From Artemia franciscana (Eukaryota; Arthropoda; Branchiopoda; Anostraca; Artemiidae): a stretch of DNA of 64,000 nucleotides. The stretch is taken from positions 1,728,552-1,792,551 of the forward strand of contig NW_027062662.1 of NCBI RefSeq assembly GCF_032884065.1, read 5' to 3'. Of the stretch, positions 7,125-61,931 are shown in pieces. A model generated the notes under the pieces. That model was not told the origin of the DNA. It was given only the letters and a program-made list of their open reading frames with translations, and searched no databases. Each line of letters opens with the position of its first letter. Positions within the stretch are counted from its first letter, which is position 1. A program made the position numbers and the translations under genes.

Positions 7125-8392
7125 AATTGATGTTAAAAGTAAAGATCACCATCTAGTAGTGTCTAAGGTTAATTTAAAGCTGAAATTTCGGAAGGGCAAC
7201 TCCCTCCCGGAAAGTTATGATGTTGGTAGACTTCAGGATGAAAATTCGAGGACCAGTTGAGTACTAAACTTGAGAGTTTAAAATTTGACAATGTGGAAGA
7301 TGGATGGAATAATTTCAGAAAAACAATATGTGAAGTTGCAGATGGTGTCCTAGGGAAGAGTGCTAGGACTGCAACTAGGACTATTAGTGAAAAAGCTTTA
7401 GGTTTAATAGAGAGTAGAAGGGATTTGTATAAGAATTATCTGAGTGATAGGTCGTATGAAAACAAAAGGAATGTAAAGAAAGTGGAGAAAGCATTAGAAT
7501 ATGAACTAAGGAGATGTGAAATGGAGGCGATGGATAAAATTGCTGAGGATCTGGAAGATGCGGCTAGACGGTATAATAGTAAAATATTATACTGACATGT
7601 TAATAAATTGAAAGGGAGTAGCCAATCCGGACTAGTCCCAGTTAAAGATAGAAATGGGGCCACAATTAATTATAAGGAAAAAGTTAAAGAAAGATGGGTG
7701 GAACATTTTGAGAATGCGCTAAACCGAGATACAGTTGCAGAAAAAGATATAGATGAAAATGAAAAAGTTTGTGATACATTGGATGTGAAGGAAGATTTGT
7801 TTAGTGAGGAAGAATTAGCGACAGTACTAAAAGGATTAAAAAATAATAAGGCCCCAGGTGCTGATAGTATGATTAATGAGTTCCTTAAATATGGTGGCTC
7901 TGAGGTTAGGAATAAGTTACTGAAGATTATGAACATGATTTTTGAAAAAGGAGAAGTACCCAATGATTTTAGGAAAACCTTAATTAAACCACTGTATAAG
8001 AAAGGTGACAAGAGTGAGTGTCGTAATTATCGAGGCATTAGTCTGGTCTCTGTAGGTAGCAAATTACTGAGTAATATGATACTTTTTAGACTGAGGCATG
8101 CTGTAGACAAAGTTTTAAGGGAAGAACAATGCGGTTTTAGAAAAGGTAGAGGATGTGTCGACCATGTTTTCACTCTTAGGTTAATAATTGAGAAGTCCCT
8201 GCGTTGTCAAACACCTTTGGTCCTTAGTTTTATCGATTATGAGCAAGCTTTCGATTCTGTTGATAGAACAGCGTTAACAAAGGTCTTATCGTTATATGGT
8301 ATACCAGAAAAATACATTGAAGTGATTTGCGCTATGTACGAGAATAATACTGCTGCGGTTAAGGTAGGAAAGAGGGTTAGCAACTGGTTTTG
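7125..8392 (+). pseudogene. RTE-like non-LTR retrotransposon, copy 1, 5' part (endonuclease end and RT)
   Basis: It starts in the last part of an APE-type endonuclease ('KDHHLVVSKV', about 7143-7172), then enters the linker and reverse transcriptase. RT landmarks are 'NNKAPGADSMINEF', 'IKPLYKKGDKSECRNYRG', 'EEQCGFRKGRGCVDHVF' and the catalytic 'SFIDYEQAFDSVDR' (first Asp of the RT triad). Defects: a frame change near 7255, an in-frame TGA at 7593-7595, and interruption at about 8392, just after 'NWFCIK', by an FB-A repeat. The endonuclease N-terminus is missing, so the copy is 5'-truncated. Its role when intact is target-primed copying of its own RNA; this copy cannot make a full protein. Confidence 0.85.
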
Positions 8393-9752
8393 TATCAAAC
8401 AGTTCGTCGTAACGAGCTGTAGTAAGGAGCGACCCGGCTCAATAGTAACCAAAACTCTAAAAAATGGAATTTTGGTACCAATAGCTGCATCAAAAGAATT
8501 GCATTTTAATGCTGATTTTAAATATATAAATTTCATCAAGTTTAGTCTTACCCATCAAAAGTTACGAGCCTGAGAAAGTTTGCGTTATTTAGAAAATAGG
8601 GGGAAACACCCCATAAAAGTCATAGAATCTTAACGAAAATCACACCATCAGATTCAGCGTGTCAGAGAATCCAACTGTAGAAGTTTCAAGCTCCTATCTT
8701 AAAAATGTTGAATTTTATATTTTTTGCCAGAAGGCAGATCACGGATGCGTGTTTATTTGTTTGTTTGTTTTTTTCTTTCTTTTTTCCAGGGGTGATCGTA
8801 TCGACCCAGTTGTCCTAGAATGTTGCGAGAGGGCTCACTCTAACGGAAATGAAAAGTTCTAGTGCCCTTTTTAAGTGACCAAAAAATTGGAGGGCACCTA
8901 GGCCCCCTCCCACTCTAATTATTTTCCCAAAGTCAACGGATCAAAATTCTGAGATAGCTATTTTTTTCAGCGTAGTCGAAAAAGCTTATAACTATGTCTT
9001 TGGGGATGACTTACTCCCCCACAGTCCCCGTGGGAGGGTTTACAAGTTCAAAACTTTGACCAGTGCTTACATATAGTAATGGTTATTGGGAAGTGTACAG
9101 GCGTTTTCAGGAGGATTTTTTGGTTGGAGGCAGGGGTTGAGAAGAGGGGGATATGCTGGGGGAACTTTCAATCGAGGAATTTGTCATGGGGAAGAAAATT
9201 TCCATGAAGGGAGCGCAGGATTTACTAGCATTACTTAAAAAAAACAATGAAAAAATAAATATGAAAAAGTTTTTTTTTCAGCTGGAAATAAGCAAAAGCA
9301 TTAAAACTTAAAACGAACAGAAATTATTACCCATATGAGGGGCTTGCCTCCTCCTAATACCTCGCTCTTTACGCTAAAGTATTTTTAGTAATTTCAACTA
9401 TTTATTCTACAGCCTTTGTGATTCAGGGGACAAAATTTAAGCTTTAGTGTAAAGAGCAAGATATTGACGAGTGGGCAAACCCTCTCATATATGAAGTAAA
9501 AACATATGAATATAGTAGTTTGTTATGTAAGGGGCTTTTCCTTCTCAACGCCCCGCTCTTTACGCTAAAGTTTTTTGCTGTTTTAAAATGTAGAGTTAAG
9601 AGAAAGAGTCAAACTTTAGCGTAAAGAGCGGGGCGTTGAGAAGGAAAAGTCCCTTTCATATACGGAGTAATTTCTGTTCGTTTTATGTTTTAATGTCACT
9701 CCTTACTTTCATTTAAAAAACTCGTTTTTTTTATATTTAATATTAAATCAGG
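8393..9752 (+). mobile_element. FB-A repeat inserted in the RTE-like element
   Basis: It begins with the family terminus 'caaacagttcgtcg' and ends in 'tttaatattaaa'. Inside are the usual landmarks ('gagcgacccggctcaatag', 'cagattcagcgtgtcagag', 'ggtgatcgtatcgacc') and then a chain of hairpins built on 'cgctctttacgctaaag' and its complement, at about 9362-9455 and 9548-9640. It splits RT reading between 'CIK' and 'SGVKHGC'. An RTE paralogue at 23041-23067 shows the uninterrupted site. No protein is encoded, so mobilisation would depend on enzymes supplied elsewhere. Confidence 0.85.
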
Positions 9753-10676
9753 AGTTAAGCACGGTTGTGTTCTATCCCCCTTTATATGGATCATTTTGAT
9801 GGACTTCGTCTTAAGGAGCACAGGAAAGGCAATTGGAGACCATGGAATCAAATGGGGAGGAAGAACGCTCTTGGACTTAGATTATGCTGATGATTTAAGC
9901 ATATTAGATGAAAGTGTGAGCAAAATGAATGAATTTTTAGAGGTTTTACGAGTTCAGGGTGCTAAAATAGGCTTGAAAATTAATGTTAAGAAGACTAAGT
10001 CACTAAGGCTAGGAATAACTGAAGATGAACAGGTGACATTAGGTAACGAAAAGATTGATCAGGTTGGGAGCTTCAGTTACCTTGGTAGTATTATTAGTAA
10101 AGATGGTGGGAGCAGTGAAGATGTTAAAAGTAGAATAGCTAAGACTCAGGGTGTTTTTTCACAGTTAGAAAAAGTTTGGAAGAATAGAAAGATAAGTCTG
10201 CAAACCAAGATTAGAATATTGGAAGCTACAGTGATGACACTGGTCAAATATGGCTCTGAAGCATGGGCACTCCGAAAAGCAGATGAAAATTTACTAGATG
10301 TTTTCCAGAGAAATTGCCTACGGATTGTTCTGGGTACCCAGCTGACTGACCGTATTTCAAACAGTAGGTTGTATGAAAAGTGTGGTTCAATCCCGCTTTC
10401 TGGGGCTATAATGAACGAAAGGTTGAGATGGCTAGGGCCCGTTCTACGGATGAAGGATGACAGATTACCAAAGATTGTCCTTTTTGGCCAAACGTCTGGG
10501 GCTACACGGAAAGCAGGTCGTCCTTGTCTGGGTTGGGACGATGTCATAAATAAAGATTTAAAGGAAATGGGAACATCCTGGGAGGGTGTAAAGAGGGAGG
10601 CTTTAAATAGATTAGGTTGGAGAAGGAGCGTGCGTAGCTGTGTTGGCCTCAGGCGGCTTGGTGCTGCAGTGAGTTA
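9753..10676 (+). pseudogene. RTE-like retrotransposon, copy 1, 3' part (RT catalytic core to C-terminus)
   Basis: Continues the RT from the 5' part: 'SGVKHGCVLSPFIW', the catalytic 'LDYADDLSIL' (YADD box), thumb segment 'VGSFSYLGSIISKDGG', then the conserved tail with 'LRIVLGTQLTDR', 'GRPCLGWDDVINKDLKEMG' and 'CVGLRRLGAAVS'. About 310 codons are open to the TAG at 10674-10676. The tail with 'GRP..W.DD' is typical of RTE-like elements. The 3' flank is rich in 'tta'/'gta' triplets (10677-10700), which may be the element's tail. Together with 7125-8392 it forms one element of about 2.2 kb once the FB-A insertion is discounted. Confidence 0.88.
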
Positions 10677-13600
10677 GTATTATTAGTAGTAGTAATAATC
10701 AGAATAGTTAATCTAATTAATGTAATTGGTAAAATTAGTGGAATAATAAATGTCTCATTCCAGTTAATAAAAAAAAATACAAAACAAGTAGGATCCAGAA
10801 ATTTTATTATATAACCCTAGGACTATGTCCAAGCATTTTGTGGGAGTGGGACTGAGACACGGTTGATATGGTATTAGTTTTCACACTTGTTACTAAACAT
10901 TGAGGGTTCTAAAACATAATTTCAATTTATTTAAATCCCGATTTCAAGTTAGTAAATATCCAAGTATGTAATACTGAACTAAGTAATAACATCACTTTAA
11001 CTCATAGCAACAATGTAAAAAAGAAAACTAAACATTAATTAAAGATGAAACCACAGATGAATCGTCATGAATAAATAATATGTGTATGAATGTAACACAG
11101 GATGAAACCTTGGACATTAATATTACAATCAATCGAAGTTAATTTGTGAATACATCAGGTTATGGTATTTAAAATCTTAACCTACTTCTCTTTAATTTCT
11201 TTCTTCAAATATGATACGTATGAAATTAAAGGCAAGGGTTTCATGCTGAATGAGGAGCATTTGACTAGTGGTAGCACGGCCGTATCCAGGAAGGGGGCTT
11301 AGGTACAGACGTGGCTCCAGCATTTTTATTGGGGGGGGGGGCAAAAATGTCAAAGTTGAGCTGCTTTCAGTATTAAGATTATCTTCACTTTCTGTTAATG
11401 CGTTACTATAAGAAGATGTAGATGGTAATCCAATCCCATCCCTTTTCAATACCTTCTTCTACTTTCCATTGCTTTTTTAAAGTTAGTTCAGAGCCAAAGA
11501 ATGTAAAGAGCTCTGTCCTTAATAAACTAAATAAAATTGATCCGTTATAAAACACATCAAATTTGAGAGCTGGAAAAAACTGTTTTTTACGGAACTGGTT
11601 AAGGAACTGAACGTTTGGCCATCTTACATCGCTGAGCCAACAGATGTGCTTATTCTGAATTAATAGTTTACAGAACACATATTACCCCAGCTGTACCGAT
11701 CCTTGGACTACATGTGCTTGCCTTCTTCCACCTCGTGGGGGGGGGGTGTACCAAGCGGTTAAAAAGTTAAGATATCACACATATTCCTTATGTCTTCACA
11801 CGTAAAAAAGTTACTATTTAGCAAAGACGTTACTTGGTTATATTCAAAAATACTACAGAATACAATAAACAACGTACATGTATCAAAAAACACAAATTAA
11901 GTAGTGTACTCAGCTTTTACCGCAGCTTAGATAGCAATACAGCTATGAAAACTCGATTTGTTTTTGGGACACAATGCGCGGCAGTGATACTAGTGGCTGA
12001 AGACAGGAAACTGGCAGCACAACTTAGATACCAATATTGGTATCTAAGCTGTGTATGCAACACAACAAAATTGCGTTCCCGACTACGGTGTTGTAGTACG
12101 ATCTACACGTCGGAGCGGCTTGGAGGAGCCGCCAAGTTTAGAGCTCTGTACCAAAAGCATCTCGTGGGCAAGATAGGAGTTTTCATAACTGTATATCGGT
12201 ATCTAAGCTGTGGCTTTTACAAACGCAGTAAGCAATGAGTTGCTGTAGACGACAGTAGTGTACTGTAAACATGTATTTGGGAGAGTGATGGTGAGCTTAA
12301 TAAGCTCGGTTTTTTTCTTCCAGCCTTACTGTTAATATTAAAATGCATGTCCCCCTTCCATTTCCTTCAACTCCAGCGTCCATCATAGACACTAAATCTC
12401 GTAGTTCAGCTACATGCTATTCAAACAGCCCCTTGTATCGTGTCATTCAGTTGCATGTGATTTGAAAATGAAGTCTTAACAAATCAAAAAGTACATCCTT
12501 TAAATTGGCACTGTTGACCTTATACAGGGAAATTATAACCCCCTCATTGAACAACAAGAAAAAATCACTTTTATATGGGCAGCAGTGACATGTCCTCTTA
12601 TTTTTCTTCGCCGCTATGGAGGCACTGGAACATCATAGAAAGCTGTTTGAGGACTCGTAAAAGCTAATTCTTATATCTCATTTTTTTTGTATTTTCGACA
12701 TAAAGTGCCACATGAACGCCAAAAGCGCAATTTGGGTGACATTTCTGAAGTGGAAAGGCTGGTTCGGAAACTTGGACACCATCTATAGCTAATTATAAGT
12801 TCATTTATAGACTATTTTGTAAATTTAATTGCTTTTTATAAGTTGGACTTAATAAAGCAATCATAAAGTGCCACATGGCACCCAAAAAGTACACTTTGGG
12901 TTGTTTTTTTTTCATAAGAAAAAAAGGATATTGCAAAATGAAGAAATTCGGCGGACTAATTTTCCCCCACCTCTGTGGAAATTTTCGCACATGGAGAATC
13001 TCCCTTGAAACTTACCCTACATTTGAAATAGCTACAGTATTTTTAATTTAAGGTATTCGAAAAAAAAGTGTGATTTCTTTACTTCACAAAGAGCATTGTT
13101 TGATCAAGGATACCCAGAAAATCTGAATAACTCTTGGCAGCATTGCGGTTGAAACCTTACACTAATTAAAGTTTGCCAGGGATGCCAATTGTATAAGAAA
13201 AATTGATACTTAGAGTTAAGAAATATTTAATCGTATAAGAAATATTGACACTTAGAATTTGGAAGTTACCTTCTTCTTTGGGCATGAGGCTTACACATTT
13301 TCTGAAGAGGGGGAGGGTGGAGGATACTAAATATTTGTTTATGTCTAGAATTCCTTTCACCAATCAAATCTCGGTCTCCTAATTCTGCATGTTAAAACTG
13401 ATAACTATAGAAAAAGAGTATGGGCTGGCGCTGCTTAGATGTGAGCTTAAAATTTCTAAATTGTACAACAATATACATATATTGTTTGGATTCACTTAAT
13501 CCTACTTGCAACAGACATTTAACACAGCACATTGATGCAGAGATAAATGTCACACAAGTAGCACTGGCGTTACTTGAAATGTGACTAACAAAAGTAATAT

Positions 13601-13721: not shown

Positions 13722-15254
13722 TGACTCTTTCTCTCAACTCTACTTTTTAAAACAGTAAAAACTTTAGCATAAATAGCAGGGCGTTGAAGAGGGAACAGCC
13801 CCTTTCATATACGGGGTAATTTTTGTTCGTTTTAAGTGTTAATGTCGCTCCTTACTTTCAGTTAAAAGAAAACTTGTAATTTTTATTTGATTTCTGAAAT
13901 TTTTTTTAGTTAATCCATGTTTTTATTTTGGTTCTCTGCAGATGAATAATTAAAGCGAAATATGCATATTTAGTTATTTGGCTAAATGGCTTTCCCATAA
14001 TTTTGATCAACTGATTTTGAGAAAAAAGGAGGGGGTGGAGGCCCAGTTGCCCTCCAATTTTTGGGTACTTAAAAAGGCAACTAGAACTTTTAGTTTTTTA
14101 CAAATGTTTTCATCAGTAAAAGATATACATAACTTATGAATTATCTTACATAACAAACTACTATATTCATATGTTTTTACTTCATATATGAGAGGGTTTG
14201 CCCACTCGTCAATATCTTGCTCTTTACACTAAAGCTTAAATTTTGTCCCCTGAATCACAAAGGCTGTAGAATAAATAGTTGAAATTACTAAAAATACTTT
14301 AGTGTAAAGAGTGAGGTATTAGGAGGAGGTGAACCCCTTATATGCGTAATATTTTCCGTTCGTTTTCAATTTTAATGCTACTCCCTACTTCCAGTTGAAA
14401 AAAACTTTTTCATATTTATTTTTCCATTGTTTTTTAAATAATGCTAGAAAATGCTGTGCCCCCTTTATGGAAATCTTCTTCCCCCATGACAAATTCCTCC
14501 ATGGAAAGTTTCCCCCCAATAACTTCCTCTTCTCAACCCCCCTCCTAACCAAAAAACCCTCCTGAAAACGTCTGTACACTTCCCAATAACTATTACTATA
14601 TGCAAACACTAGTCAAAATTTGCAACTTGCAGCCTCTCAGATGGGGACTGTGGGGCAGTAAGTTGTCCTCAAAGACATATTTATAACGTTTTTTGACTAT
14701 GCTGAATAAAATGGCTCTCTCAGAATTTTGATCCAACAATTTTGAGAAAAAATGAGCATGGGAGGGGGCCCAGGTGCTCTCCAATTTTTTGGTCACCTAA
14801 AAAAGGCACTAGAACTTTTCATTTCCATTAGAATGAGCCCTCTTGCGACCTTCTAGGACCACTTGGTCGATATGATGACCCCTGGGAAAAAGAAATTTTC
14901 CCAGAAATCTTCTGGCAAAAAATACAAAATTCCACATTTTTGTAGATAAGAGTTTGAAACTTCTACGATAGGGTTCTCTGATACGCTAAATCTGATGGTA
15001 TCATTTTCGTTAAGATGCTATGACTTTTAGGGGGTGTCTCCCCCTATTTTCTAAAATAGGGCAAATTTTCTCAGGCTCCTAACTTTTGATGGGTAAGACT
15101 AAACTTGATGAAAATTATATATTTAAAATCAGCATTAAAATGCAATTCTTTTGATGTATCTATTGGTATCAAAATTCCTTTTTTTAGAGTTTTGGTTACT
15201 ATTGAGCCAGGTCGCTCCTTACAACAGTTTGTTGCCATGAACTGTTTGATAAAT
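13722..15254 (-). mobile_element. FB-A repeat, near-complete copy (minus)
   Basis: In reverse orientation: hairpin end at about 13735-13870 ('cttactttcagttaaaag'), middle landmarks 'ggtttgcccactcgtc', 'cattttgatccaac' style phrases and 'gacttactgccccac' (complement near 14650), and the outer end 'gaactgtttgat' at 15239-15250. It closely parallels the arms of the 44-49 kb foldback. Short open frames in it occur at the same place in other copies but code for no conserved protein I recognise. Confidence 0.8.
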
Positions 15255-17570: not shown

Positions 17571-20075
17571 CTATTCTTTTGCAAGGATGAATCTCTTAAC
17601 AACAGCTTTGAAGGAAGCCAAATGACTCGAATTTCTTATTTCAATTGGAATAATATCCCATACAGAGGGGGCAAAATTTCTAATCACGAAAGAAGCTCTA
17701 GCCGTATTTCTAAATGGGTGTACCAGATTTGATGCCCCTCGTGTATTGTGGCTATGAAGATCACAATTAATGGAGAAAAAATTTTCGAAAGAAGAGGGAA
17801 GTATATTATTAATAAATTTATATGTGAAAATACACATATAATGAAATCGTCTGCAAAAAGGATTATACCAGCCTCTGACAAATAATACTTAATCCAATCA
17901 ATAAATATTAAAAATAAAAGAGGACCTAGTATAGAGCCCTGGGGTACTCCGCAAGTTATCGTACTAGCTTCAGAAGTAAAACACCCATTCACCACAACCT
18001 GCTTTCGGTCACTTAAATAAGATTCAAACCAAGACAAACTCTTTCCGGTAACACCGATTTTTTCCAGCTCAAGTAATAACTGTTTATGGTCAATCGTATC
18101 AAAAGCCTTTTTCAAATCCAGGAATAAAGCAGCTGGAATCAGACCCGCTTCAAACGACGTATTTACCCAGTCAACAAGTTTAATGGTTGCCATTTCTGTG
18201 GACATTTTTTTTCTAAAACCAAATTGAGTATTTATAAGAATTGTATTATTTTCAACGTAATCAGTTAGCCTGGATCCTATCACCTTTTCATATATTTTTG
18301 AAAAAAAAGGGAGGATAGAAATGGGTCTTTTGTTTGAAGGGTCGTCTCTTTTACCTCCTTTGTACAATGGTATTATTTTAGCCACCTTCAAAACTTCCGG
18401 GAAAATTCCTTTTTCCATAGACTTATTAATCAAATTACATACAACTGGTGTTAAAACTGATTTAACTGATTTAGCAATCTTAAGAGAAATCCCGTCTACG
18501 CCACTTGAGTTTGATTGGATTCTACTGATAATTGTACTCACTTCACTTATGCTACAAGCATTAAAAACCAGCTGATTTTCTACTGGAATTTCCGACTGAA
18601 CTATTTTGGGAGGTCGCTTAATTCTTTTCCGAGCATCGTCACAAAGTTTCGCTCCCTCACTAGAAAAATAATCACATAAATAATTCGCAACATCATTTGG
18701 GGTAGTCAAATTCCCCCTCTCTGTTTGTAATTTATTAATAACTTCTATTTTACCCTTTTGACCCAGGAGTGAATTTACTGTTTTCCATGTTTTTTTCATA
18801 TCACATTTATGGTTCATAAATTCATTTTGTAAATACATTTTTTCAGCTTTCCGTTTTAATCCGTTTAAAGTATTCCGGTAATTTTTAAACTGCTGAAAAT
18901 TAATGACAGATGGTTCCCCTAGGTATATTTTATACAATTCATTTTTCCGACTTATAGAATTTAGAATGCCCTGTGTAATCCATGGTTTCTTAGGGAATTT
19001 CGTACTACCTCGTACTACCTTTAAGTCTTCTTAGAGGACACGTATCATTCAATATCTTTGTAAATATTGGAACAAAAATGTCATACGCAACCGACGGGTT
19101 ATCTTCTTCAAAAACTGGAGTAAAATCTGCATCATCCATTTCTCTCTCAGATTTTTTTAAATTATCATTTCTTAAATCACGAAAATATGTTTTATTTATT
19201 TGACCACTCTTATTTATAATCCTGTAAGATTGTTTTATTTTACTAAGAAGAAATATATGGTCGGATCCATCCGTGAGTAGAACATCAGCATACGAACTTT
19301 CAAGCAGCTTTCCATCCACAAATATATTATCGATAAGAGTCGCAGACTAATCAGTTACTCGTGTAGGAATAGTTACCAGGGGGTACTGGAATGATGAAAT
19401 CATAGAGTTAAGAAAATCTAGGCGGCTTGTACTTTTAAGGAGGTCAATATTGAAATCCCCCATTACTACTTTATATTTATGATCATTACTAAATTTCTCA
19501 ATTAAATGCTCCATTTTCTCAATAAAAACATCCTCATTAAATGACGGTGTCTTATAAACTAAACCAACAACTACATTTTTATCAGATTTATCTTCTATTT
19601 CAATAAAAAGAGTCTCAAGTCTTCCTTCAAGCCAAAGTGTGAGATCCTCGCTTACCCAATACGAAACTCCTTCCTTTATCAACAAAGCCAGACCGCCTCG
19701 CTCCATAACCTGTCGTTCTTTTCTTTCACTAACATATCCTGGAAACTGGAAATCCCACACTGAAAAAGTATCCCTATTCGTTACAAACGTCTCACATAGT
19801 CCTATTACTAACGGTGTTTCTTGCATATCACTTAATATGTTGCACAGTGTAGGGTATGCAGTCCTAAGGCCTTGGCAATTCCAAAATGCAAAAATAGTAT
19901 CTTCTTTGACCGACCATTTCTTCAGCGACTGACTATCCAAAAAATTACTAGCTTTCATTGCTTGAGTATTATTTCCTTCACTTAAATTATCATTTGCAAT
20001 AGGGGTGGATAATAATTGGTCAACAGACAGCCGATTACTTTCTAAGTCTGAAAGCCTGTCGGTCATACTATTCAT
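17571..20075 (-). pseudogene. ORF2: APE endonuclease and reverse transcriptase, disrupted
   Basis: It starts at ATG 20075. Endonuclease motifs in order: 'FAFWNCQGL', 'GLCETFV', 'RGGLALLIKEGVSYW', 'VGLVYKTPS', 'VMGDFNIDLL', then 'TLIDNIF' and 'DGSDH'. The RT follows: 'SNSSGVDGISLKIAKS', 'IPLYKGGKRDDPSNKRP', 'QFGFRKKMSTEMA', 'LDLKKAFDTIDH', 'GVPQGSILGPLLF' and 'FADDF'. Three lesions are visible: an in-frame TAG at 19349-19347; a 10-bp tandem duplication at 19001-19020 that shifts the frame between endonuclease and RT; and a deletion just after the FADD box (about 17840), which removes the thumb region and joins the RT to the C-terminal tail ('NTRGASNLVHPF', 'FAPSVWDIIPIEIRN'). The copy is dead. 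Confidence 0.88.
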
Positions 20076-20216
20076 GATAATACACTAGTATGCTCAATAG
20101 TGCGAACTCTTTGATATCTTAATGACGAAACAAACAAAAAAGTTTTTGACACGAGATTAGCGAAACAAAGCAGCCAACCCCAAATAATTGAAAGAACTGA
20201 GGATGGATTCAACATG

Positions 20217-21239
20217 TCAGTACTGGTCACTGATCAGGTCATTCAGTGACCTAATTTTCAAGATGGCTGAACTGTTTTCCGGTTTGGCTAGCACACGGCC
20301 ACCATCAGTCCAAACATTCCGAGCTCCAAATTTGTCGCGTGCCAGATTCAGCAGTTGCTTACGTTTTGGTGTTTAATACTCAGATATAAATACTTTCGAT
20401 CGGGCGAGCTTCTTTTTGTTCATGAACACGCGGTTTGCACACTCAGATGAATGAAAAGTGACGAGAACAGGCGGGATAACATTTTCCGCTGATCTAACTC
20501 GAGTACGTAAGCGCTCAGTTGACTTGATGTCACTAGCAAGCACACGGATCTCCATCTTAGCATTGAATAACTCTAGAACGCTATTGGGCAGCGTTTCTCC
20601 ACCTAGCTGAGACAGTCCATGGATTAGAAGAACGTTCGATCTTCTTTCCTGTTCCAAATCGTCGTTGCGGTATTCTAGAATTTCGATGCGATTTTCTAGC
20701 GCCGTTATTTGAGCTTGAAACCCCTTAAGCATCTTTTCAATATTTGCAAATTTTGAACTGTAATCGAGACTTATTACATCATAGATCTCGGTAACAATAG
20801 TGTTAATTGCTTGTTCACTGATCACGCCTTTGTCGCCTGAACATTTCTCAATCACCTGTTTGTGAATATCCTGACGAAGATTTTCTTTCAATTTGGCAAA
20901 TTCACTCTGCGCGTTTACTAGGGTAGACGAGAGTGAAGATACACTGTTTGTCGAAGCAGCACCAGCAATTCTCATTATTTCTTGATACACATCCGGAAAT
21001 GTGGCTAGTTCAGTAAAAGCACCTTGAACTCCTTTCGACTTTTTCTTTGAAGCTTCGGGGAAATTTTTTTCGAACGGCAAAATGAATCCCTCACTCAGTG
21101 ATGCTTTTTCGTGTGATCCGTAGCAAAATACTTGATAAGATTTTCCCTTCTTCGATGCAGTTATACCAACTATTCGAACAGGCCACAAAGGGTAGCCGTA
21201 GAATTTGCCAAACGCAACGTCATTAACACTGTAAGACAT
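20217..21239 (-). pseudogene. ORF1: PWWP domain, coiled coil and RRM-like nucleic-acid-binding region
   Basis: The likely start is the ATG at 21239, which sits at the domain edge with G at -3; an earlier in-frame ATG at 21347 adds 36 residues of low plausibility. Residues about 4-75 form a PWWP domain of HDGF/LEDGF type: 'DVAFGKFYGYPLWPVRI' (the PWWP box reads PLWP, residues 17-20), 'YQVFCYGSHEKASL' and 'ILPFEKN', then a basic 'KKKSKG' turn and a helix. Residues about 110-195 are heptad-like, ending in 'LENRIEILEYRNDDLEQE'. Residues 200-288 ('SNVLLIHGLSQ', 'RLRTRVRS', 'PVLVTFHS', 'NKKKL') and the continuation ('RKQLLNLARDKFGARNVWT', 'GGRVLAKP') match the RNA-binding ORF1 core of many non-LTR elements. 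An in-frame TAA at 20375-20373 interrupts the C-terminal part, which runs on in frame to the TGA at 20219-20217. Of the three LEDGF cage positions, two are aromatic here (F13, W19) and one is Cys (39). Confidence 0.85.
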
Positions 21240-24427: not shown

Positions 24428-24488
24428 ATATTTAGTTCCATGTTTGTTTTGTTGGTTTTTTCTTTGGCATTTTCCTTGAATATATTAT

Positions 24489-26823
24489 TATGGCACTTGG
24501 TATCTACCAAGTGACATATAGCAAATGCAAATTCTGTTAGTCTATCTGTCTGTCCTGGTTTTGCTACTTTAGGCACTTCCTGGTAAGCTAGGACAGTAAA
24601 ATTTGGCATTATCAGGAACCAGATAAGATTAAATTAAAAATTGCCATGTCCCCAATTTGGCCATCTGAGGGTGAGTGGCAGGATGGTTAAATCAGAAAAA
24701 TTAGAAAGAATGAGGTATTTTTAACCTCAAAATGGGTGATTGGATCTTAATGAAATTTGATGTTTAGAAGGATATTGTGTCTCAGAGCTCTTATTTTAAA
24801 TCCCGACCAGATCTGGTGACATTGGGGGAGTTTGGGGGGGGGGCTAAAATCTTGGAAAATGCTTAGAGTAGAGGGATCAGGATGAAATCTGATGGTAAAA
24901 ATAGGCACACGTCCTAGATATGTGATTGATATAACTGGATTGGATCTGCTCTCTTTAGGAGAGTTGGGGGGGATTCTGAAAAATTGGAAAAAATGGGTTA
25001 TTTATAACTTACAAAGGAGTGATTGGATTTTAATGAAATTTGATGTTTGGAAGGATATTTTGGTCTCAGAGCTCTTATTTTAAATCCTGACTGGAACCTG
25101 GTGAAATTGGGGGGAGTTGGGGGGAAGGAAACCTAAAATCTTGGAAATGCTAAGAGTGGAGGGATTGGGATGAAAGTTGGTGGAACAATAAGCACAAGTC
25201 CTAGCTACGTGATTGACATAACTGGAACGGATCTCTCTTTGGGGAGTTTTTTTTGGGGGGGGGGTTAATTCTGAAAAATTAGAACAAATGAGTTATTTTT
25301 AACTTGTAAAGAAGTGATCAGATCTTAATGAAATTTGATGTTTGGAAGGATATTGGATCTCAGAGCTCTTATTTGAAATCCTGACCAGATCTGTTGACAA
25401 TTGGGGGAGTGGGAAGGAACCTAAAATTTTGGAAAACACTTAGAGTGGAGGGATTGGGATGAAGCTTGGTGGGAAAAATAATCACAAGTCCAAGATACAT
25501 GATTGATGTAACCAGAATGGATCCACTCTCTTTGGGGGAATTCTGAAAAATTAAGAAAAAATGAGGTATTTTTAACTTACAAAGGAGTGATTGGATCTTA
25601 ATGAAATTTCATATTTAGAAGGACCTCGTAACTCATTTCTCTCATTTTAAATCCAGACCGGATCCATTGTCGTTGGGGGGGGGGACTAAAATTCTTGGAA
25701 AAGACTTAAAGCAGAGAGATCAGGATGAAACTTGGTGGGAAGAATAAGTGCAAGAATTTGGAACAATTAGAAAAAAATGAGGTATTTGTAACTTATGAAT
25801 GGGTGATCAGATCTTAGTGATATTGGATATTTAGAAGGATCTTGTGCTCTAGGACTCTTATTTTAAATTCCGACCAGATCCGGTGACATTGGGGGGGAGT
25901 TGGAGTGGAAACCAGAATTCTTGGAAAATGTGAAAATTGAATTACCTTATGAATGGGTGATTGTATCTTAATGAAACTTGATATATAGAAGAATATCATG
26001 TCTCAGTTGCTCTATTTTCAAATCAGATCCGCAGACATAGAGGGCTGGAGGGGGGAACCAGAAATCTTGGAAAACGCTTATAGTGGAGAGATTGGGATGA
26101 AACTTTATGGTAAGAATAAACACAAGTTATAGATACAAGATTGACGTAATTGGAACGGGTCCGTTCTCTCTGGAGGAGCTGGGGGTTGTTAATTTAGAAA
26201 AACTAGAAAAAATGAGGTATTTTTAACCTAAAAATAGGTGACCAAATCTTAATGAAATTTGATGTATAGAAGGAAATCATGTCTCAGAGCTCTTATTTCA
26301 AGCTCGACCAGATCTGTTGACATTGGGGGGAGTCGGAGGGGGAAACCAGAAATCCTGGAAAACACTTATAAATATTGTAGATACGTGAGTGAAATAACCA
26401 GACTGGATCTGCTCTCTTTGGGGTAGTTAGGGGGTGTGGTTCAGTGCTTTGGCGAGTTTGGCGCTTCTGGACGTGCTGGGATGATGAAAATTTGTAGGCA
26501 TGTCAGGGAGCTGCACAAATTGACTTGATTAAGCTGTTTTTCCTGATTTGACCATCCAAGGGGCTGAAGCGAGAGGAAAAATTAGAAAAATTAAGGTATT
26601 TTCAACTTACGAGTGGGTGATTGGATCTTAATGAATTTTAATGATTAGAAGAACCTCGTGACTCAGAGCTCTTATTTTAAATCCTGATCAGCATTAAGCC
26701 TCTGATTTTTCCTTCTAAAGCAATCTATTGATTCTTAGAATTTTGCTAGAGCTCATACCATATGAGCTCTTGGCTCTTTTGACCTCATCACAAGTGCCAT
26801 ATGAGCTCTTAGCTCTTGTCTTG
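24489..26823 (+). repeat. TR-A repeat element, copy 2 (longest)
   Basis: It starts with the head 'ggcacttggtatctaccaag', an imperfect-loop palindrome (CACTTGGTA / TACCAAGTG), followed by 'tctgtctgtcctggttttgc' and 'gctaggacagtaaaatttgg'. The body has about seven internal units whose 'gaccagatctggtgacattg' landmark falls near 24805, 25088, 25382, 25655, 25872, 26023 and 26307, spacings of about 150 to 295 bp. It ends with two 'catatgagctctt' blocks. No intact protein is shared between copies. Confidence 0.8.
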
Positions 26824-34695: not shown

Positions 34696-34839
34696 TTAAC
34701 TACGTAAAACATGCGAATATACAACATTCATCGCTGTCCCATTGTCTGTGCATATAAATAGATTGTCAGGTTTACTGACTCTTGAACATGCAACATATAA
34801 TTGTCCATGGGAAAAACAATCCGTATTCAGATCTATACC
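34696..34839 (-). pseudogene. C-terminal 47 codons of Helitron Rep/helicase
   Basis: The minus-strand frame 'GIDLNTDCFSHGQLYVACSR' continues to '...VVYSHVLRS' and TAA at 34698-34696. 'HGQLYVACSRV' is the final motif of Pif1-type helicases, the DNA-unwinding half of the Helitron protein. Upstream is a pair of stops and the minisatellite, so the rest of the helicase and the whole Rep nuclease are gone. The same tail recurs near 35538-35681, 36470-36611, 37105-37245 and 38030-38155. Confidence 0.85.
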
Positions 34840-34859
34840 TCATTATTCGAATGATGTGT

Positions 34860-35215
34860 CCCTGTGTCCCGGTCGTCATTTGTGTCCCGGTATCCCAGTT
34901 TGTAATTTCTCTTTGAGTATCCCGGTCGTCATTTATATTCCCTGTGTCCCGGTGTCCCGGTCGTCATTTGTGTCCCGGTCTGTAATTTCTATTCGAACAA
35001 TCCCTGTGTCCCGGTCGTCATTTATATATCCCGCCTCTGCCCCCGGCGTCCTCGTTGTAGTTGTGTCCCTATGTCCTGGTCGTCATTTATATTCCCTGTG
35101 TCCCGGTCGTGATTTGTGTCTGGGTGTCCCAGTCTGTAATTTCTCTTTGAGGTTCCCGGTCGTCATTTATATTCTTTGTGTCCCGGCCGTCATTTGTGTC
35201 CTGGTGTCCCGGTAT
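34860..35215. repeat. Helitron minisatellite, block 1 (more blocks at 35700, 36617, 37255 and 38165)
   Basis: Irregular repeats of 'gtcccggtcgtcatttatat' alternating with 'tgtgtcccggt' and 'ctgtaatttctctttgag'. Similar blocks lie at about 35700-36090, 36617-36780, 37255-37640 and 38165-38365. On the Helitron's coding strand the array would encode Asp/Arg/Thr-rich text such as 'NDDRDTG'. The Val/Pro/Cys-rich open frames on the other strand have no independent support. Confidence 0.85.
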
Positions 35216-35370
35216 GTAATTTCATCAGTTGACAAACATGACGTCAGTCGACAAACAACTTCATGACGCATACAACTCAATCCTTATAATGACGTCAGTC
35301 GACACACAAACATGACGTCACTCGACAGACACACACACACAGACAACTTATTTTTATATATATAGATTTA

Positions 35371-36885
35371 CTAGCTGTTGGGGTGGCGCGCCCCAACACC
35401 TAGTTGGTGGGGCGCTTCGCGCCCCCCCCCCAAGCCCCCCCGCGCGCTTAAGTCGTTACGCGTCATATTAGTTACGCGCCATTGTAGTTGTGTCCCTGTG
35501 TCCCACCTGTGAATAGAGATAGATATAAATATATGTTTTTAACTACGTAAAACATGCGAATATACAACATTCTTCGCTGTCCTATTGTCTGTGCATATAA
35601 ATAGATTGTCAGGTTTACTGACTCTTGCACATGCAACATATAATTGTCCATGGGAAAAACAATCCGTATTCAGATCTATACCTCATTATTCTAATGATGT
35701 GTCCCTGTCCCGGTCGTCATTTATATTTTCTGTGTCCCGGTCGTCATTTTTGTCCCGGTGTCCCAGTTTGTAATTTCTCTTTGAGTGTCCCGGTCGTCAT
35801 TTATATTCCCTGTGTCCCGGTCGTCATTTGTGTCCCGGTGTCCCGGTCTGTAATTTCCATTCGAACAATCCCTGTGTCCCGGTCGTCATTTATATATCCC
35901 GCCTGTGTCCCCGGCGTCCCCGTTGTAGTTGTGTCCCTGTGTCCCGGTCGTCATTTATATTCCCTGTGTCCCCGTCGTGATTTGTGTCCGGGTGTCCCAG
36001 TCTGTAATTTCTTTTTGAGGTTCCCGGTCGTCATTTATATTCCCTCTGTCTCGGTCGTCATTTGTGTCCCGGTCTGTAATTTCTCTTTGAGTGTTTTTTC
36101 TTTTTAGTTTTTTTTTTAGTTTTTCATCTTTTTTTTCTTTTTTCAGTTTTCTTTTTCTTCTTTATTTTTCAGCGTCACTATGAAGTACGTATCGCCGAAC
36201 CTTTGTTTTTTTTAACTTAAATCTGGTAGGCATTGATGACCTTATCCAAGTCAAAATCCCAAACCCAATCATCATCGCTATCATTTTCAGTTTTGATGTT
36301 TTGACTCTCGCTGTCCAGGTGGATTTTCATCTAACTGCGCGGTTTTGCGTTCTTTAGCCGCAAGCCTGTTTTCTTGCTGTTCTTGTGATTCCTCGGCACG
36401 CTTTCTTTTCTTACTTTCTCTATCAGTTGCAAGCCAGTTTTCTTGCTGTTCTTGTGATTCCTCGGCACGCTATGCTAATATACAACATTCTTCGCTGTCC
36501 CATTGTCTGTTCATATAAATAGATTGTCAGGTTTACTGACTCTTGAACATGCAACATATAATTGTCCATGGGAAAAACAATCCGTATTCAGATCTATACC
36601 TCATTATTCTAATGATGTGTCCCTGTGTCCCGGTGTCCCGGTCGTCGTTTATATTCCCTGTGTCCCGGTCGTGATTTGTGTCTGGGTGTCCCAGTCTGTA
36701 ATTTCTCTTTGAGGTTCCCGGTCGTCATTTATATTCCTTGTGTCCCGGCCGTCATTTGTGTCCCGGTGTCCCGGTATGTAATTTCATCAGTTAACAAACA
36801 TGACGTCAGTCGACAAACAACTTCATGACGCATACAACTCAATCCTTATAATGACGTCAGTCGACACACAAACATGACGTCACTC

Positions 36886-60779: not shown

Positions 60780-61931
60780 AGAGACGAGAGATATGTATGT
60801 TATGAATGTTATTTTTTTTTAATAAACCCAAGTGAACTGACTGAACTGAGTGACGGTAATGCATTTCTCACCTCCATGTGTACCACTTTTCCAGTCGTTA
60901 CTTCCCCGGAGAAAGCCTCGCTTCTTGATGATTGCCCTAACGAAGGCATAATAGCACTCAGTTTATTTAGGTGTATAGTGAAATCAGGAAAGTGAAGACA
61001 AACGTCTCTCCTTTCCCAGGCGAAATCCCTGCAAAGCTTATGCGTGAATTTGCTTTGTTTCTAGCCTTACCTCTCTCAGTTCTTATAAACCAGTGCTTTG
61101 CATCTGGGACCTTCCCTAGATCGTGGAAAAAGGCCCACATCCGTGCAATTCCTAAAGTGAACCCGCCCAAGGCGTGTGATAATTTAAAATCAATCACCCT
61201 AAAACCATGTCTACCAAAAGTGACAGAATCGTTCATCTTGCGGTGGTTACTAGAGCAAGTTATGCTTTTGAAAAATACCAATATGAAAAACTCCCAAAAC
61301 GTGGGACGTCTATATACCTATTCAGAATATATGATCAGATCTTGAAGTGACTTGAAAAGCAAGGCTCTTTTATCGACCTAGCCAGCCATCAACTTTCCCA
61401 AAGCTTTTGATCTCCTATCACACCTAGTGGCCTGTCGGACCACTATAGTCCCTTGTCCGCCAAATTCTTGAGTATGGGCATTGTTCTACAAGACCATACT
61501 ACAACAAGGACATAGATGCTCTCGAAAATGTTCAGAGGAGGATAACTAAATTCTCTCCCAGGTTACGTTCCCTTCCCTACGAAGAGCGGCTGAGAAAGCT
61601 TGAAATCCCAACCCTTGCCTATAGATTCCATCGTGGTGATCTTATTGAAATGTACAAGCTCTGCAATGGAGCCTATGATAACGTACCAGCCCAGAGAATC
61701 GTGCAGTTCAATAAAAATCATCTCCGAGGACATCAGTACAAAGTGAGTACGGAACGCTTTTACAATGACATGGGCCGATGGACTTTCGGCAACCGAGTGG
61801 TTCAGCATTGGAACAACTTACCAGAAAGAGTAATCTGCTCCACAAACCTACTGACATTCAAGAAGGAAGTTGATGAATATTATTCAAGTGACATTTTCTC
61901 CTTGTGCAAATTTAGAAGAAATGCAAATTAA
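60780..61931 (+). pseudogene. Outer CR1-like retrotransposon, RT start and C-terminus
   Basis: 'NAFLTSMCTTFPVV' and 'VYSEIRKVKT'-like text lead into RT motifs 'GEIPAKLMREFALFLALPLS', 'CFASGTFPRSWKKAHIRAIP' and 'KVNPPKACDNLKSITL' (61000-61200). The palm is deleted. From about 61450 a clean frame of some 160 codons resumes with 'ILEYGHCSTRPYYNKDIDAL', 'ENVQRRITKF', 'LPYEERLRKLEIPTLAYRFH', 'RGDLIEMYK' and 'VVQHWNNLPERV', the typical CR1-like C-terminal domain, to TAA at 61929-61931. The good state of the tail against the broken middle suggests a moderately young insertion damaged by deletion. Confidence 0.78.

Follow-up and report, generated by a model that had tools for sequence, protein, structure and literature searches.

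A 64,000-nucleotide stretch of Artemia franciscana DNA (contig NW_027062662.1, positions 1,728,552 to 1,792,551; hereafter the window) carries a long interspersed nuclear element (LINE) whose first open reading frame (ORF1) opens with an HDGF/LEDGF-type PWWP domain, as judged by profile matches and a modelled fold. An ORF1 that bears a chromatin reader is of a known kind; what appears new is the PWWP, a reader absent from the earlier list of ORF1 domains. We propose that a group of LINEs captured this domain, remodelled the methyl-lysine pocket within it (M15 to F, F44 to C and F45 to Y, in the numbering of LEDGF, or PSIP1) and uses it as a predicted LEDGF-like guide to methyl-marked chromatin, shaping insertion. 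We put the probability of this reading at roughly one in three. The choice of insertion site by LINEs with an apurinic/apyrimidinic-type (APE-type) endonuclease is an open question, and a PWWP domain with well-mapped residues (M15, Y18 and W21) on an apparently recently active LINE makes targeting testable.

The preliminary description of the window had placed an HDGF/LEDGF-like PWWP domain at the start of ORF1, and Pfam, phmmer, a family profile and the predicted fold all agree. Residues 7-74 of ORF1 (21018..21221, minus strand) match Pfam PF00855 at 29.2 bits (E 1.3e-6), a significant score against the gathering cut-off of 25.6, so the identification survives its profile search. The motifs first quoted for the domain, YQVFCYGSHE and ILPFEKN among them, are all present in the window ORF1. 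Six further families in the same genome score 32.9-38.7 bits, all above the cut-off, as do three of the five public relatives scanned; the other two fall slightly below (25.2 and 25.1). When the window sequence was compared with the PDB by phmmer, HDGF came top at 1.1e-8, followed by LD23804p of entry 6kco at 6.1e-8 (which we take to be a fly protein) and then by HDGF-related proteins. The window sequence alone gives HDGF 38.0 bits and PWWP2B 28.3. The preference sharpens with a seven-family profile, which matches HDGF at 1.6e-13 (53.9 bits) against 5.5e-4 for the top PWWP not of HDGF type, with PWWP2B at 22.5 and NSD2 at 22.3 bits. The AlphaFold model has the PWWP beta-barrel fold and matches the HDGF PWWP domain by Foldseek at E 5.9e-7, in VIA and Foldseek lists where many PWWP rows could mask other folds. 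By sequence, C-terminal helices included, the HDGF/LEDGF-related subfamily is the nearest.

The remainder of ORF1 resembles the L1 ORF1 protein (ORF1p). In P0003, a relative with a full-length ORF1, residues 161-350 align with the trimer structure of L1 ORF1p (2ykq and 2yko, by Foldseek and VIA), at 12-15% identity in the fold alignments. By sequence profile the match to an L1-like core is weak (E 0.07), and Pfam Tnp22 was not reported in scans of the window or family ORF1s. On the fold of P0003, the protein has the coiled coil, RRM and carboxy-terminal domain (CTD) of a Type II (Tnp22/L1-like) ORF1. The window ORF1 has a long helix, presumed to be the coiled coil, at residues 142-201 of the AlphaFold model (20637..20816, minus strand); this helix and the L1-like fold of P0003 bear out the earlier suggestion that the PWWP domain is fused to a coiled coil and a nucleic-acid-binding core. 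The second frame, ORF2, encodes an APE-type endonuclease and a non-LTR (non-long-terminal-repeat) reverse transcriptase, both recognized by Pfam, and the family D reverse transcriptase matches L1 ORF2p at 6.8e-15 and also R2. RNase H was not seen in three ORF2s, for which Pfam gives the endonuclease and reverse transcriptase domains alone. The 3' ends inspected of family A-C copies are short tandem repeats; L031 (family D) has a repeat of this kind and, after it, a stretch of A. The Pfam result for RNase H and the tandem-repeat 3' ends of families A-C are compatible with a putative membership of CR1/L2 (Jockey superfamily).

The PWWP-ORF1 design is widespread in this genome (1.27 Gb in 6468 contigs), where at least eight diverged families, A-H, carry it (PWWP search, best 150 of 733 first-look candidates scored). 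Queried with the window ORF1, the genome returned at least 142 matches (best 135 of 2647 candidates scored). Relative to family F, to which the window copy belongs, ORF1 identity is 33-39% for families A (L022), B (L023), C (L026), D (L031), E (L030) and G (L038); family H is represented by L047.

The PWWP domain is also tied to ORF2. We defined near-full window-family copies as those with at least 90% identity, a start no later than residue 7 and a length above 800 bases (n=18, window included). All 18 are followed on their own strand by a reverse transcriptase, at a distance of 2.2-3.1 kb; this pairing covered 39 of 142 ORF1 rows and 45 of 97 reverse transcriptase rows, the latter from the best 94 of 34585 candidates. 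Around PWWP matches, 18 of 20 chosen loci have same-strand endonuclease or reverse transcriptase frames at the protein level, and L036 has them by nucleotide match alone. An ORF2 search for family D (best 45 of 46078 candidates scored) found 18 copies that reach the first ORF2 residues; for 12 of them, a PWWP-ORF1 at the expected distance is among the matches listed. The other six comprise two with a frameshifted PWWP, three 5'-truncated within ORF1 (at residue 79, at residue 31 and near 27-30) and one truncated past ORF1. Family D thus contains the 5'-truncated copies typical of LINEs, in the pattern expected of target-primed reverse transcription. No other domain was seen replacing the PWWP in any copy inspected. 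As a side observation, two loci have tandem PWWP starts before a single ORF1, perhaps a partial duplication (L029, 2183-2569 and 2838-3887; L039, 1655-1981 and 2304-2621).

Of three ORF1 segments compared, the PWWP domain shows the strongest conservation. Mean identity between seven families is 44% for the PWWP, 31% for the middle and 39% for the coiled coil and core (F and G lacking their C-terminal ends here), which rules out the PWWP as neutral baggage. The ratio of non-synonymous to synonymous substitution (dN/dS), limited to the pair D-E with dS saturated between most families, is 0.14 for the PWWP (dS 1.85) and 0.11 for the core (dS 2.38). Family distances for the PWWP correlate with those for ORF2 (rho 0.53, permutation p 0.010) and, less strongly, with those for the remaining ORF1 (rho 0.40, p 0.050); the correlation between remaining ORF1 and ORF2 is weak (rho 0.20, p 0.20). 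One reason for this unevenness is an exchange that involves families C, D and E. In family E, a chimera, ORF1 resembles that of D (59-62% identity) and ORF2 that of C (61% over 516 residues), and the junction is the same in L007, L009 and L030. The PWWP was retained through this exchange. Transfer of ORF1 between lineages has likewise been proposed for CR1/L2 LINEs and the Jockey superfamily, in the relevant sections of Metcalfe and Casane (2014, PMC4120745).

Conservation extends to much of the methyl-lysine pocket. According to the passages of PMC3663649 on the PSIP1 pocket, the cage is formed by M15, Y18, W21 and F44; the M15A mutant shows no enrichment on H3K36me3-rich genes, and W21A and F44A abolish binding, perhaps via unfolding. 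For HDGF2, the cage residues named in the corresponding passage of PMC3119473 are Y18, W21 and F44. In JASPer, the account in PMC6877644 has H3K36me3 binding abolished by Y23A, W26A, which alter two cage residues; we take Y23 and W26 as the equivalents of Y18 and W21, and by alignment they appear conserved here. The window residues at M15, Y18, W21 and F44 are F, Y, W and C. The preliminary description had given the cage as F, W and C; those residues are there, but the LEDGF cage has four positions and the fourth is Y in the window. In all 18 family sequences, F occupies the M15 position, W the W21 position and Y the F45 position; at Y18, 15 sequences have Y and three have F. Three of the four cage positions are thus aromatic in 18/18, and with F44 replaced the full cage is not present. 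One aromatic wall has gone and one has been gained, alike across families, so that the pocket looks rebuilt under selection rather than lost. LD23804p (Shuguo), which has an HDGF-type PWWP, also has Tyr at the F45 position; unlike the window protein, with its Cys, this host protein keeps Phe at F44. One family D locus, L006, has an open ORF1 with Trp at the F44 position.

What might such a domain do for a LINE? We consider it rather probable, from sequence and modelled structure, that the PWWP heads of ORF1p dock the element ribonucleoprotein on nucleosomes. The L1-like fold suggests that ORF1p would trimerize via its coiled coil and coat the element RNA. Next, the particle would dock on nucleosomal DNA through its PWWP heads, of which each trimer would probably have three, as expected of the subfamily, and the rebuilt methyl-lysine pocket would give a preference for some chromatin state. 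Docking would raise the local concentration where ORF2 nicks DNA and primes reverse transcription. In this way the PWWP may assist the element in selecting a chromosomal site or staying there. If so, it would be a natural analogue of the LEDGF tether, built into the element. The shared alteration of the pocket may also point to a ligand that is new for PWWP domains.

A number of observations weigh against this docking model. First, the F44 position is Cys in 17/18 and Ala in 1/18 family sequences, and F44 is needed in PSIP1 for binding or folding. Among 43 PWWPs of individual element copies, the same position is Cys in 39, Trp in two (L006 and L008), Phe in one (L004) and Tyr in one (L002); this count takes in fetched loci up to L053, with L015/L032 and L016/L031 counted twice and the host-like match L005 excluded. 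Second, the DNA-binding patch K73/R74/K75 survives only in part and is less conserved than the pocket. Third, linkage to ORF2 has its gaps. The other 21 ORF1 rows in the pairing, partial or diverged, have a reverse transcriptase match nearby in 12 and none in nine, among the reverse transcriptase matches listed, and one of the 20 chosen loci, L033, is an ORF1 fragment alone. Upstream of ten chosen reverse transcriptase matches without a scored ORF1 match, the DNA shows a PWWP in one (L047). Two of these ten, L041 and L042 (decayed copies of family H), have an ORF1 core without a PWWP, preceded by DNA that is identical in both, with no start codon within reach; L043 and L044 keep only the ORF1 C-terminus before the reverse transcriptase; and L045, L046 and L048-L050 have no ORF1 in the stretch inspected, where L045 and L050 have endonuclease sequence and ORF1 may lie beyond. 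Window-family reverse transcriptase copies without a listed ORF1 add L060, cut past ORF1, and L061, with nothing recognizable in the stretch; L062, of the same family, retains its 5' end with most of ORF1 deleted. The prediction that PWWP and ORF2 travel together therefore holds for most copies with a surviving 5' end, with L041, L042 and L062 as exceptions.

One alternative is that the element encodes its own LEDGF: the PWWP would read H3K36me2/3 and steer insertion to transcribed gene bodies, as LEDGF does with lentiviral integrase. This is possible though doubtful. The domain falls in the HDGF/LEDGF subfamily by profile and is under constraint, three of the four cage positions are aromatic in every family sequence, and the two JASPer cage residues needed for H3K36me3 binding are conserved by alignment; yet F44 has given way to Cys or Ala throughout. 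LINE target choice also depends in part on the ORF2 endonuclease, which counts against this alternative.

The loss of F44 from all 18 sequences is what one would expect if the PWWP were a plain nucleic-acid-binding or nuclear-retention module (for RNA, single-stranded DNA or nucleosomal DNA) that does not read methyl-lysine. The HDGF-type PWWP of Shuguo was solved with single-stranded DNA (6kco), and the basic face of HDGF-type PWWPs binds DNA, as stated in the pertinent part of PMC3663649. We nevertheless think this explanation unlikely: the W21 and Y18 equivalents and an aromatic residue at M15 persist in 18/18, beyond what DNA binding needs, and it is the basic patch that is less conserved than the pocket.

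Improbable, in our view, is a role in countering the host, in which the PWWP would act as a competitor or mimic of host proteins of the HDGF/JASPer type and so keep element chromatin active or evade silencing. Against it, ORF1p is thought to act in cis, staying with its own RNA. On the other side, JASPer in Drosophila shows enrichment on telomeric LINEs, and most transposable elements measured are expressed less when it is depleted (from the corresponding results in PMC6877644). Finally, a host HDGF exon adjoining a retroelement by chance can be set aside as having a negligible probability, given the 2.2-3.1 kb reverse transcriptase spacing in 18/18 copies, at least eight families and homologues in public data.

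The proposed methyl-guided LINE has several parallels among known systems. LEDGF/p75 (PSIP1) tethers lentiviral integrase, and HIV borrows LEDGF from the host. The PWWP subfamily is the same, and mobile-element machinery would be docked on chromatin in both; there, however, the reader is a host protein and insertion is by integrase, whereas here the reader is element-encoded and insertion presumably proceeds by target-primed reverse transcription. Chromoviral (Ty3/Gypsy) integrases carry chromodomains, which are Royal-family chromatin readers. The reader is thus element-borne and of the Royal family in both, on the integrase of an LTR element there and on the ORF1p of a non-LTR element here. 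L1 ORF1p shares the core of coiled coil, RRM and CTD, on the fold of P0003; unlike the protein described here it has, to our knowledge, no PWWP.

Among non-LTR elements, the survey of 448 Jockey-superfamily elements in PMC4120745 lists ORF1 types with PHD, RRM, CCHC, Tnp22, esterase, and zinc-finger or leucine-zipper domains. PHD and esterase domains had been cited at the outset as known in the ORF1 of related LINEs, and both are indeed on this list; PWWP is absent from Table 1 of that paper, and the word occurs 0 times in its available text. The PHD-ORF1s of CR1/L2 elements likewise have a domain of histone-reader type, which in some subgroups accompanies a Tnp22-type core, and a general targeting role is suggested in the sections of that paper devoted to them, where the authors knew, as of 2014, of no functional study of ORF1 PHD domains. 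The domains themselves differ, the PHD zinc finger and the HDGF-type PWWP having unrelated folds. We found no description of the PWWP-ORF1 combination in the open literature, in searches both with and without the word PWWP (titles, abstract starts and selected passages, among the matches listed; most subscription papers and Repbase Reports lie outside this scope), in line with the initial remark that its author knew of no described non-LTR family with this architecture. A Magnaporthe paper reports, in the passage concerned, the insertion of a DNA transposon into a PWWP gene, which is a different matter.

Relatives were also found in public data. Three protein searches, in two of which the best ~8000 candidates were scored, gave 21 proteins (P0001-P0021) among the matches listed, 12 with a precomputed PWWP domain. 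Because P0011 is nearly identical to family A, it may derive from another assembly of the same species. P0003 most likely comes from a different genome, since its nearest match in this one is at 48% (best 116 of 3440 candidates scored). Two relatives, P0020 and P0021 (P0021 bears the label Iphiclides podalirius), lack a PWWP and match the C-terminal core alone, which suggests that the PWWP joined a pre-existing L1-like ORF1. No relatives of the family D ORF1 were confirmed in the prokaryote collection. For a host HDGF donor gene, a human HDGF PWWP query gave at least 145 matches (best 150 scored); the three top ones (L051-L053), the three inspected, are LINE copies, and a host HDGF exon may be split by introns.

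Near-identical copies suggest that the PWWP-LINE group, which is large and old, was active recently, on a relative scale: identity is 99.3% over 4.9 kb for a pair of family B copies and 99.1% over 1.9 kb for a pair from family D. ORF1 and ORF2 are both open in L022, L023 and L031, from three families, and elements of families A, B and C measure 4.7-5.0 kb. Two further features of copies were noted. The locus G000:C17:33243615-33266818 is a head-to-tail array of four near-identical window-family copies at 6.6 kb spacing, with ORF1 and ORF2 frames open in each. By eye, AGT at the alignment edge opens 7/9 of the A-C copies with ends inspected (L022, L021, L023, L024, L025, L026 and L035), perhaps a shared start-site element.

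The window copy itself is, by its sequence, a dead LINE, with a stop in ORF1 and a frame break and an internal loss in ORF2. All its parts lie on the minus strand. ORF1 (20373..21239) starts with an ATG at 21239 and encodes 288 amino acids before an in-frame stop at 20375-20373. The span first given for it, 20217..21239, was right in its frame and start codon, but its end at 20217 disregards this stop. The remaining frame past the premature stop, for the C-terminal core (20217..20372), ends at a second stop at 20217 and resembles the P0005 C-terminus by eye. From stop to stop the frame is 342 amino acids, against 394 in nine other copies at 97-98% identity. In ORF2, the endonuclease part (19347..20084; PF03372, E 4.6e-6) has its own frame, separate from that of the reverse transcriptase part (17846..19030; PF00078, E 5.1e-27), whose lower end was set by tblastn against the family A ORF2 and which sits in an open frame at 19030-17684. 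A C-terminal remnant (17574..17843) matches residues 925-1014 of the family A ORF2 by tblastn; compared with that protein, the C-terminal half has lost about 180 codons internally.

Other repeats share the window. One, at 14001-15250, has copies beside or inside several PWWP-LINE copies, for example within the family B copy of L034. A tandem repeat with a unit of ~0.28 kb, at about 24480-26000, has relatives in L031, L037 and L038. The rest were recognized by eye, all on the plus strand: another LINE-type reverse transcriptase in two frames (7596-8573 and 9694-10677), a fragment resembling the C-terminus of another LINE ORF2 (61449-61931), and frames with a repeated peptide (CPGRHLY.LCPG-like; 34700-36107), probably a translated tandem repeat.
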